Positions 14,219 to 18,367 of a stretch of DNA of 34,441 nucleotides are shown here, one piece after another (position 1 is the stretch's first letter; each line of letters begins with the position of its first letter). Below the pieces are notes generated by a model that was not told the origin of the DNA, did no database searches, and worked only from the letters and a program-made list of their open reading frames with translations. A program made the translations under genes and the position numbers. This DNA is from Bacteriovoracia bacterium (GTDB lineage: Bacteria; Bdellovibrionota; Bacteriovoracia; Bacteriovoracales; Bacteriovoracaceae): assembly GCA_030427595.1 (NCBI GenBank), contig JAUIBX010000013.1:1-34441 (forward strand). The letters are read 5' to 3'.

Positions 14219-15052
14219 ATGGGACTACGAATTAATACCAACACGCCGTCAATCTCGGCTCAACGTTCATTAAGTGTTACAAACAGGAGAATGAACGACA
14301 ACCTAAGGAAACTTTCCTCAGGAGAGAGAATTACGCGAGCAAGTGACGATGCTGCAGGTTTAGCAATTAGTGAAAATTTAAAAGCGCAAATACGAGGAAA
14401 TAGACAAGCAAAGCGAAACGCTAACGACGCTATTTCTATGATACAAACGGCCGAGGGAGGCTTAAGTGAGATTTCTAACATTATCATTCGACTTAGAGAA
14501 CTCGCAGTACAAGCTGCCTCGGATACAGTTGGGGCTACGGAGAGAGGTTTCTCCGACATTGAGTTTCAGCAGCTCAAAGAAGAGATCGACAGGATCTCGA
14601 AATCCGCAGAGTTCAACGGGATTAATCTTCTCGATGGCTCAGGAGGAATGCTGGAGTTTCAAGTCGGCGTACACAATGACCCTATACTGGACCGTCTGCG
14701 CTACGATGGTACAAAAGCTAATACTACCCTTGCAAACTTGGGACTTGTTGGCGAAACCGTTAGCACCAAAGAGGGGGCACAAGTCACGCTCAAAAAGCTT
14801 GATGATGCCTTGGTGCAAATTAACGGAGTTAGGTCCGAACTTGGGGCGACCCAGAACAGGCTCACATCAACGATCAACAACTTGGCGATCAGTGATGAGA
14901 ACCTTAGTGCGGCCAAATCGAGAATTAGAGATGTCGATGTAGCAGCTGAAACTGCAGACTTGGCAAGAAACAATATTCTCGTACAGGCAGGTACATCTGT
15001 GTTGTCACAGGCAAACCAGGCACCTAATGCTGCCCTCAAATTACTTGGATAA
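14219..15052 (+). CDS. Flagellin (second copy)
   Basis: A second short flagellin of 277 residues, clearly a paralogue of the one at 13151. It has MGLRINTNTPSISAQRSL, LRKLSSGERITRASDDAAGL, IRLRELAVQAASDTVGATER and C-terminal INNLAISDENLSAAKSRIRD and ARNNILVQAGTSVLSQAN. It ends in LKLLG rather than the usual hydrophobic-glutamine tail. AAGGAG lies seven nt before the ATG, inside a minicistron. The 219-nt gap from the first flagellin has no strong terminator; a TAAAG at 14058 could be part of a weak sigma-28 site but the -10 match is poor. A strong terminator follows. Confidence 0.96.
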   Translation: MGLRINTNTPSISAQRSLSVTNRRMNDNLRKLSSGERITRASDDAAGLAISENLKAQIRGNRQAKRNANDAISMIQTAEGGLSEISNIIIRLRELAVQAASDTVGATERGFSDIEFQQLKEEIDRISKSAEFNGINLLDGSGGMLEFQVGVHNDPILDRLRYDGTKANTTLANLGLVGETVSTKEGAQVTLKKLDDALVQINGVRSELGATQNRLTSTINNLAISDENLSAAKSRIRDVDVAAETADLARNNILVQAGTSVLSQANQAPNAALKLLG

Positions 15053-15068: not shown

Positions 15069-15105
15069 CACCCGGAGCTTCGAATGAAGCCCGGGTGACT
15101 TTTTG
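15069..15105 (+). terminator. Terminator after the flagellin genes
   Basis: CACCCGGAGCTTC, loop GAAT, GAAGCCCGGGTG forms a long GC-rich stem with one bulge, followed by ACTTTTTG. It lies 17 nt after the flagellin stop. Confidence 0.88.
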
Positions 15106-15153
15106 CATTCAGGATGAATGCATGCCGCGGAGGCAGGAGCCGACAGCAGGCAT

Positions 15154-15600
15154 ACCCAGCCCTGAACTCCACCAAAACCAAAAGCGAAGGAAAACTGACA
15201 AAGACCCGCAAGCGCGCAGCGCGAGGAGTCTTCCGGCAGTTTGACGAAAGCGTTCGGAGGTAAATCTTCGAACTAGAGAAGTTGTTCTTGAAACAGGCAT
15301 GACAGACTAGCCAAAATCATCACCCAGCCCTGAACCCCACCAAAACTAAAAGCGAAGGAAAACTGACAAAGACCCGCAAGCGCGAAGCGCGAGGAGTCTT
15401 CCGGCAGTTTGACGAAAGCGTTCGGAGGTAAATCTTCGAACTAGAGAAGTTGTTCTTGAAACAGGCATGACAGACTAGCCAAAATCATCACCCAACCCCG
15501 AACCCCACCAAAACTAAAAGCGAAGCGAAATCGGCAAATGACCGCGGCAGCTTGCTGCAAGGTTATTCCGGCGATTGAGCGTAAGCTTGTCCTCGCACAT
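15154..15600. repeat. 168-bp tandem repeat (two near-identical copies plus a diverged third) with conserved nested inverted repeats
   Basis: Copy 1 is 15154-15321, copy 2 is 15322-15489; they differ at only a few positions. Copy 3 starts at 15490, keeps about 45 bases, then diverges in sequence but keeps the same architecture. In copies 1-2 AAACTG/CAGTTT encloses AAGAC/GTCTT and GCGC/GCGC. In copy 3 AATCG/CGATT encloses AATGACC/GGTTATT and GCAGC/GCTGC. A second stem-loop follows in each (GTTCG/CGAAC versus CATTC/GAATG). Minus-strand ORFs across this region are just repeat read-through. I do not recognise the element. Confidence 0.85.
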
Positions 15601-15620
15601 TCAAAGAATGAAGTACCACT

Positions 15621-15656
15621 CAACAAGCGACACCCGTAGGGTGAGCGACTCTAAAA
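15621..15656 (+). repeat. Short hairpin element (AGCGAC family), copy 1
   Basis: CAACAAGCGA then a small stem CACCC, loop GTA, GGGTG, then AGCGACTCTAAAA. The flanks match, in reverse complement, the two units at 28532 and 28582, while the stem sequence differs completely yet still pairs. Confidence 0.7.
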
Positions 15657-15673
15657 AAACCACGAGCCACAAA

Positions 15674-15699: not shown

Positions 15700-15709
15700 C
15701 CCTAAGGGC

Positions 15710-15796
15710 TTAAGAGTAAATAATCTCGTAGAGCATAACCAAAAGGTTAATCAACAAAATCAATACCTTAATCCATTGTAGGTACTTCTCCTCCAT
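15710..15796 (-). CDS. 28-residue hydrophobic peptide, type I toxin-like
   Basis: I found this ORF by reading the minus strand; it is very short. It starts MEEKYLQWIK, continues as an uninterrupted hydrophobic helix (VLILLINLLVMLYE) and ends IIYS. A charged N-terminus plus one membrane helix is the layout of type I toxins such as Ldr/Ibs/Fst and of some phage holin-like peptides. GGAGG lies five nt before the ATG, and a GNRA-loop terminator follows the stop. TTAACC, 17 nt, GATAAT on the minus strand upstream (about 15870-15842) is a possible promoter. No antisense RNA promoter is clear. A block TACCTACAATGG within the ORF is repeated about 117 nt upstream. Alternatives are a small membrane regulator or a chance ORF. 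Confidence 0.55.
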   Translation of the reverse strand: MEEKYLQWIKVLILLINLLVMLYEIIYS

Positions 15797-15905
15797 GAAA
15801 ACCTCCATTTAGGAGCCCTCGTCACTGAGGGAAATGGGGAGACATACCCAAAAAATATGCTATTATCAGCTAATCCCTTCTGGGGGTTAACCATTGTAGG
15901 TATAC

Positions 15906-15948: not shown

Positions 15949-16377
15949 CTAAATTTCCTTACGAATCCTCATGGCCACACCATCCAACTTTTCTCTCTCC
16001 CACTCATGTAAACCTCCACCATGAGAGAAGCCCATGGGGAGACCGTCGTTTACTACGCGCGGGCAAATATGAAGATGGGAGTGCATGACTTCCTGGCCAG
16101 CGACTTCACCATCGCTTAAGAAGAAGTTTGTGCCATCACACTTGATGTCGGAATTGAGGATAGCTGCTTGAATTTTTTGGGCCATCTTAAACATCTCTTC
16201 AAGGTAGACGGGTTCAATTTCTTGAAACCATTGGAAGTGTTTGTTGGGAATGACTAAGGCGTGTCCTTCTTGAATAGGGTGAAGATCCATAAAAGCGGTG
16301 ACAAAATCATTTTGAGCGATGAGGGAAACCTCTGCTTCACCTTTTAAAATTTTACAGAAAATACAATTGTCACTCAT
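15949..16377 (-). CDS. HIT-family nucleotide-binding protein
   Basis: HIT proteins are small nucleotide hydrolases or transferases that act on AMP-linked or dinucleotide substrates in the cytosol. The 142-residue product starts MSDNCIFCKILKGEAE, the common HIT N-terminus with a CxxC pair, has HALVIPNKHFQWFQE in the middle, and carries the catalytic HSHLHICPR (the H-x-H-x-H motif) near residue 104. GGAGG eight nt before the ATG at 16377 supports this start over one 20 codons upstream. It is divergent from the RmlD-like gene with about 74 bp between starts. Confidence 0.93.
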   Translation of the reverse strand: MSDNCIFCKILKGEAEVSLIAQNDFVTAFMDLHPIQEGHALVIPNKHFQWFQEIEPVYLEEMFKMAQKIQAAILNSDIKCDGTNFFLSDGEVAGQEVMHSHLHICPRVVNDGLPMGFSHGGGLHEWEREKLDGVAMRIRKEI

Positions 16378-16451
16378 ATAACCAACCTCCATACCCTGAT
16401 ACTTCTTGCCCATTATCTTATAATACCTATCGCTCATGCTAATATTTTCTT

Positions 16452-18051: not shown

Positions 18052-18099
18052 TGAAAGGCTGATTGAAAGGGGGTTGGAGAAGAAAGAGAAAAAAAGAGT

Positions 18100-18367
18100 G
18101 GGTTTTGCTGGCTTCAAGTTTCCGCCCGTCATTTGACAGGTGGACGCAGTTAGTAACCACTTTAGGCTTCTCACCTCGAGCTTTCGCTGTTGTGAGCTTG
18201 CTCACCATGGCCAGGGACCGCTTCCTTGGTAGTTATTGTAGGGCGAAATACTGTATGCCAACCACAAAACCCATTTATGAGTATGCCCGAAAATAACGCA
18301 TTATTCAATGGTTAAATTTAGCCCTTGCTACCGTAAGTTTTTGAATATATTGAGTTTTGCTTATTTG
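18100..18367. other. Intergenic stretch with inverted repeats before the Tad operon
   Basis: No credible gene between 18017 and 18488; a 77-codon ORF at 18063 has no recognisable features. The stretch holds a perfect hairpin GTGAGC/GCTCAC near 18200, CGTC/GACG near 18130, and a segment that in reverse reads CAGCGAA...GAAGCCTAAA, a possible degenerate relative of the AGCGAC hairpin elements. Confidence 0.45.

Follow-up and report, generated by a model that had tools for sequence, protein, structure and literature searches.

What is a 168-bp tandem repeat doing directly behind a flagellin gene, and why does a copy that has lost much of its sequence identity still keep its fold? We addressed these questions in a window of 34,441 nucleotides (contig JAUIBX010000013.1, positions 1 to 34,441; assembly GCA_030427595.1) from a Bacteriovoracia bacterium of the family Bacteriovoracaceae. 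A first-pass annotation of this stretch, made from the letters alone, had taken the repeat for a structured non-coding element rather than a junk duplication.

A tandem array of hairpin units behind a flagellin gene

The gene upstream of the repeat (14219–15052, + strand) is the second of two flagellin genes (Flagellin_N, 5e-42; Flagellin_C, 8e-26), and its orthologs in five congeners are 91–94% identical to it. It is followed by an intrinsic terminator, read from the sequence, that consists of CACCCGG..CCGGGTG and a T-run (15069–15104, +) and is kept in the congeners. Tandem Repeats Finder reported a single array in the window, at 15154–15530, with a period of 168, 2.2 copies, and a score of 710; this copy number rests on a single draft assembly of 3.8 Mb in 360 contigs. 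Copy 1 (15154–15321, +) is made up of a folded part, which we call unit B, and a tail, and carries a nested hairpin at 15184–15251 and a second stem-loop at 15252–15273. The corresponding structures lie at 15352–15419 and 15420–15441 in copy 2 (15322–15489, +), and at 15520–15586 and 15598–15610 in the diverged copy 3 (15490–15610, +), the last of which takes the array slightly beyond 15600.

Copies 1 and 2 are identical at 165 of 168 positions, differing at 15168, 15179, and 15217, which bears out the description of a nearly identical 168-bp repeat in the first-pass annotation. The same annotation had placed the loss of identity in copy 3 after about 45 bases, and the drop was found near there: copies 2 and 3 agree at 37 of the first 41 bases, and over copy bases 42–109 they agree at 42 of 64 aligned positions. 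A coding repeat was rejected: although 168 is divisible by 3, every frame on both strands is interrupted within two 168-bp units. The tail of copy 1 contains a weak promoter-like site, TTGAAA-18-CAAAAT (15288–15317, +; a consensus match only), which recurs at 15456–15485 in the tail of copy 2, so that each site is located just 5′ of the next copy. Four promoter-like sites were counted in the region against 0.9 expected, with two of the four being this same repeated site.

The fold of unit B is conserved through paired substitutions

In copy 3, the outer stem AAACTG/CAGTTT of copies 1 and 2 is replaced by AATCG/CGATT, and the middle stem AAGAC/GTCTT by AATGACC/GGTTATT, with one G·U pair. Overall, 10 of the 22 stem positions are substituted, yet 10 of 11 tested pairs are retained. 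The earlier proposal that copy 3 keeps its nested stems and the following stem-loop holds, with a correction to the inner stem, which had been given as GCAGC/GCTGC: pairing GCAGC-UU-GCUGC would give a 2-base loop, and the apical stem folds instead as GCGGCA/UGCUGC with a GCU loop.

A single-copy homolog of B was found in a congener, G005, between the orthologous flagellin gene and the gene for an RmlD-type epimerase, which in the congeners directly follows the flagellin gene. Its stems, AAACCG/CGGTTT and AATGCCC/GGGTATT, keep 11 of 11 pairs through paired changes. The first-pass annotation had staked its reading on such paired substitutions in further homologs, and G005 has them in the same stems. 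Under random substitution at the observed numbers, the probability of keeping the observed pairs is 0.0013 for copy 3 and 0.0021 for G005. No B was found behind the orthologous flagellin gene of G001, G002, G004, or G006, while the G003 contig gave no useful coverage of the place. The site common to the window and G005 fits plain inheritance with losses.

In an alignment of copies 1–3 and the G005 homolog, 96.8% of 62 cells are paired, and 4 of 16 pairs have changed on both sides. The covariation score is 0.333, compared with 0.154 for shuffled alignments, and none of 500 shuffles reached the observed value; since the structure was drawn from the same sequences that were scored, the slid control is biased. 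When copy 1, copy 3, and G005 were folded separately on the + strand, the same nested stems appeared in all three, with z-scores of −1.16 (weak), −2.98, and −2.75, respectively, compared with −0.79, +0.44, and −0.48 on the − strand. The wobble pairs are solely G·U on the + strand, in what are very few sequences. The loop motifs rCA/CCGG and GCGAA..AAGC are kept as well.

The core of copy 3 agrees with the G005 homolog at 35 of 41 aligned positions, and that of copy 1 at 32 of 42. These core identities suggest that copy 3 represents the older form, and that the copies were homogenized in their 5′ parts afterward. The alternative between structured element and junk duplication that the first-pass annotation had drawn is only partly apt: the fold of B has been conserved over a longer time, but copies 1 and 2 themselves arose from a recent duplication in tandem.

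The searches for unit B turned up no carrier besides the window genome and G005. Model R1, run over 129 genomes of the family, recovered these two (G000 and G005) and otherwise weak matches, the best of which (G151, E 2.4e-4) lies inside an ORF. Similarly, the sole further blastn match among 98 relatives (G054, E 2.2e-4) falls inside a coding frame, and both candidates were rejected as homologs. When a pattern for the B core was scanned over 84,980 GTDB species, 29 stretches matched; R1 accepts just one of them, the G005 record (74.6 bits, with the next at 16.3). Viral contigs contained no match to B, and blastn searches of phages and plasmids found nothing. Rfam gave no match at gathering score in 15100–15600, CsrB and the RsmX/Y/Z families included; at E-values up to 5, the sole nearby match was a weak one at 15619–15664, outside the repeat.

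Element A, a dispersed double hairpin, precedes the array

Directly upstream of copy 1 lies a second structure, element A (15104–15153, +), which falls outside the coordinates of the first-pass annotation and had been missed there. It is a double hairpin of about 50–60 bp with GGA loops. Hairpin 1 (15104–15122, +) reads GCATTC-AGGAT-GAATGC, with AGGAT as its loop, and hairpin 2 (15122–15153, +) has an outer stem ATGCC/GGCAT and an inner GGC-AGGA-GCC at 15132–15141. The fold z-score in the window is −4.10 on the + strand and −3.94 on the − strand. G005 also carries A directly upstream of its B homolog, with paired changes that give an outer stem TATCCAG/CTGGATA around GGC-AGGA-GCC. B was not found beside any copy of A other than those in the window and G005.

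A search with the pattern CAGGATG-N6..26-GGCAGGAGCC detected A in 19 of the 125 genomes of the family; the forward sense matched 49 times and a reversed control once. From these, 42 distinct copies entered alignment A4, on which the covariance model R2 was built; the invariance of the core motifs in these 42 copies is by construction of the pattern. R2 matches the window copy at 15102–15158 with 44.4 bits and has matches in 44 of 129 family genomes, covering 18 of 48 genera. The maximum is 26 copies in G107, followed by 16 in G162, 15 in G103, 11 in G017, and 8 in G118; the window genome has 5. Among 290 genomes of the phylum, 40 had an A match; 34 of these belong to the family, and the other 6 have E-values of 0.0025–0.005, about what chance would give in a set of that size. 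Likewise, 3 of 28 genomes reached through other loci matched A at E ≤ 0.05, again near chance. In viral contigs, the pattern matched 100 times, and none of the 80 listed loci that were tested passes R2 (best 17.3 bits, E 0.056).

The stems of A are compensated almost without exception. An alignment of 84 distinct copies has 94.9% of its 1057 cells paired, with changes on both sides in 10 of 13 pairs. For this alignment, which was fitted to the structure, covariation is 0.582 against 0.164 when shuffled (0 of 500 shuffles reaching it) and at most 0.116 for slid versions. A MAFFT alignment of the 42 copies gave the same picture (0.431 against 0.134 when shuffled). Among the 41 distinct copies outside the search pattern, 34 retain GGA in loop 1 and 38 in loop 2, while the stems swap; the linker GTATG and the leading TTTAT are conserved as strongly as GGA.

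Several loci showed further variation. Some consist of tandem or inverted pairs, or have extra hairpins inserted into the stems, and the three copies in G155 (L178, L179, and L180) each carry a different extra hairpin in the first loop. G110 (L175 and L176) has an A-like hairpin embedded in a longer unit of about 150 bp, which occurs five times across these two stretches on the same strand, kilobases apart. G108 and G109 (L101 and L102) carry A at what is seemingly the same site, within similar flanks, and the two copies are distinguished by paired changes in the stems of both hairpins.

Element A lies preferentially behind terminators

For an analysis of placement, 81 of 98 R2 matches were kept, after removal of 13 duplicates, in which one place was covered by two loci, and of 4 neighbors that were partial or in tandem. 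A terminator with a perfect stem and a T-run lies directly upstream of A in 46 of the 81 copies, compared with 0–2 of 77–80 at eight control offsets. The window copy goes unscored by this strict rule because of a mismatch in its terminator stem. A looser, differently scored rule gave a weaker contrast (38 of 81, against 4–6 of 77–79). The upstream gene is co-oriented with A in 60 of 78 cases, whereas no such bias is seen for the downstream gene (39 against 35). A greedily called ORF is overlapped by 11 of the 81 copies.

One copy in G107 is a clean insertion of about 60 bp: its flanks are collinear with those in G103, G108, G109, G110, and G111, which have a few bases instead. G100, G101, and G020 have other short spacers at this site, so that five of the eight relatives compared fit a clean empty site. 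A second G107 copy is absent at the aligned site in G103 and G108. Given the clean insertion and the bias in placement and orientation, A is a small palindromic element that is, or once was, mobile.

Relation to known palindromic elements

RAYT transposases are the usual explanation for small palindromic elements, and known REPs are moved by these Y1 enzymes. REP elements are short intergenic palindromes, located mainly behind coding regions, whose subfamilies are described as differing by complementary stem residues (PMC3733652). In terms of the features given there, A is alike in being intergenic, dispersed (up to 26 copies per genome), mainly 3′ of genes, and variable through complementary stem differences. 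It differs, however, in its two fixed hairpins, GTAT linker, and GGA loops, and in having neither a terminal GTAG nor a CGTC tag; the base that would complete CGTC is a G in just 20 of the 41 non-seed copies. Nor is A associated with Y1/RAYT genes. Y1_Tnp was present in 30 of the 44 genomes with A and in 56 of the 85 without it, as counted by eye from lists, and was not found in the copy-rich carriers G162 (16), G017 (11), and G118 (8), of which G017 and G118 are less than 90% complete. On the absent tag and the absent Y1 association, membership of A in the REP/RAYT class was rejected, and association with Y1_Tnp pointed to no mobilizing enzyme. A family-wide element with clean insertions, a preference for terminators, and near-perfect stem compensation, yet no tie to RAYT genes, raises the question of what moves it and how it comes to land behind terminators.

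The double-hairpin elements of Allomyces, which belong to fungal mitochondrial DNA, are a further close parallel. Fungal mitochondrial GC clusters are tiny palindromic elements that are thought to be mobile and occur singly, merged, or in tandem (PMC4478555). A shares this small palindromic form, presumed movement, and single, merged, or tandem arrangement, but the elements concerned are mitochondrial rather than bacterial, and the cited account, in the parts relevant here, describes neither a preference for terminators nor fixed GGA loops (PMC4478555). In outline, B resembles an integron attC site, with its two short helices, central internal loop, and variable end. This assignment was rejected, as the core boxes GTTRRRY/RYYYAAC were not seen in B when its sequences were read by eye; no cassette arrangement was seen. 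No earlier description of A or B was found in the literature searched, the coverage of which excludes most subscription journals.

Interpretation of the locus

We tentatively favor, at somewhat below an even chance, a composite of hairpin repeats behind the flagellin terminator, in which B, duplicated in place, is joined to the mobile A. A would have spread by insertion through the genomes of the family, preferring sites just behind intrinsic terminators and the direction of the upstream gene. B would be a lineage-specific hairpin module that became joined to A in a common ancestor of the window genome and G005, and that was then duplicated in tandem in the window lineage, copy 3 earlier and copies 1 and 2 recently. 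The stems would be kept because of the use of the hairpin itself, which would most likely act as folded single-stranded DNA while the element spreads, and secondarily as a 3′-end hairpin in read-through RNA. We infer that hairpin-based mobility is the reason for the conservation of the fold, and that B shares the mechanism of A. The array would then be an example of a folded module joined to a mobile element and amplifying beside a highly expressed gene.

A rival reading, in line with the first-pass annotation, takes B for a transcribed structured RNA. It would be either a small RNA or a 3′ read-through RNA of the flagellin gene, and possibly one in which the promoter in each tail serves a hairpin RNA in the next unit. 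The paired changes across three sequences, the promoter-like site just before each next copy, and the shared location behind flagellin in two species agree with this, and the strand-specific folding, with + strand G·U pairs in copy 3 and G005, hints in the same direction by suiting RNA better, if in very few sequences. We nevertheless consider this reading doubtful: the promoter match is weak and half of the sites are one repeated site, copy 1 barely folds better than its shuffles, B is missing behind the flagellin gene of four congeners, the repeat has no Rfam match even at E 5, and its neighbor resembles mobile DNA. Wobble pairs in A do not help here. A has 20 G·U against 16 A·C, but terminators, which act as RNA, gave 17 against 15 in an unbiased scan (tRNA acceptor stems, 3 against 1), so that the count does not separate DNA from RNA, and the argument was dropped. 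Template switching can yield paired changes without selection, and copies 1–3 might thus be ordinary tandem duplicates whose shared fold arose by coincidence or through template-switch correction of near-palindromes. The near-identity of copies 1 and 2 and the fact that only three B sequences are independent would suit such neutral duplication; the low probabilities of keeping the pairs under random substitution, the retained loop motifs, and the independent homolog in G005 make it quite improbable.

A GGA in a hairpin loop is the motif recognized by CsrA, and A displays it as do the CsrA-sequestering RNAs of the CsrB/RsmZ class. Two such hairpins with their loops 20-odd bases apart are predicted to fit one CsrA dimer, which would make A, and thus the locus, a CsrA decoy or a CsrA-responsive RNA. 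CsrA is encoded in 119 of 129 family genomes, GGA persists in most non-pattern copies while the stems swap, and A here sits behind flagellin, a usual target of CsrA/FliW. As csrA in the window genome lies between an flgL-like gene and fliW (flgL-csrA-fliW in a row), a CsrA–flagellin circuit is plausible there. In contrast to the CsrB/RsmZ class, however, A has two sites per element, occurs as dispersed single units behind terminators, and has no Rfam match. The linker and the leading TTTAT are as well conserved, so nothing singles out GGA, and R2, with which the copies were found, favors its own consensus. A position behind terminators means little transcription, most copies adjoin unrelated genes, the conservation of GGA does not extend to B (the copy 3 hairpin has none), and 85 of 129 genomes have no A although nearly all have CsrA. 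A decoy function is hence distinctly unlikely. The composite of mobile A and duplicated B can also be extended, in a form that we regard as a long shot, to an undescribed family of mobile double hairpins in Bacteriovoracaceae-type bacteria that homes to sites just behind terminators by means of an enzyme other than a REP transposase; behind one flagellin gene, it would have gained a second hairpin module with a promoter, which undergoes tandem amplification and is predicted to make a series of structured RNAs with two or more GGA-displaying hairpins.

Other features of the neighborhood

The gap between the flagellin and epimerase genes is a variable spot. Among the congeners compared, only the window genome has a gene for a HIT-domain protein there (15949–16437, −), and G006 has a different insert of about 2.5 kb. 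Between the array and the HIT-domain gene, a hydrophobic ORF of 32 residues (15710–15808, −), or of 28 residues if translation begins at an inner ATG, which has a good ribosome-binding site, is followed by a terminator-like hairpin at 15703–15678. Its product resembles a small membrane peptide such as the type I toxins; the 28-residue form gave no match in a Pfam search. The short direct repeat CCATTGTAGGTA occurs at the start of this ORF (15775–15788) and downstream of it (15890–15903), and an antisense contact between the two is possible. Further along, a 6S RNA (RF00013, 60.7 bits) was detected at 18093–18278 on the − strand.
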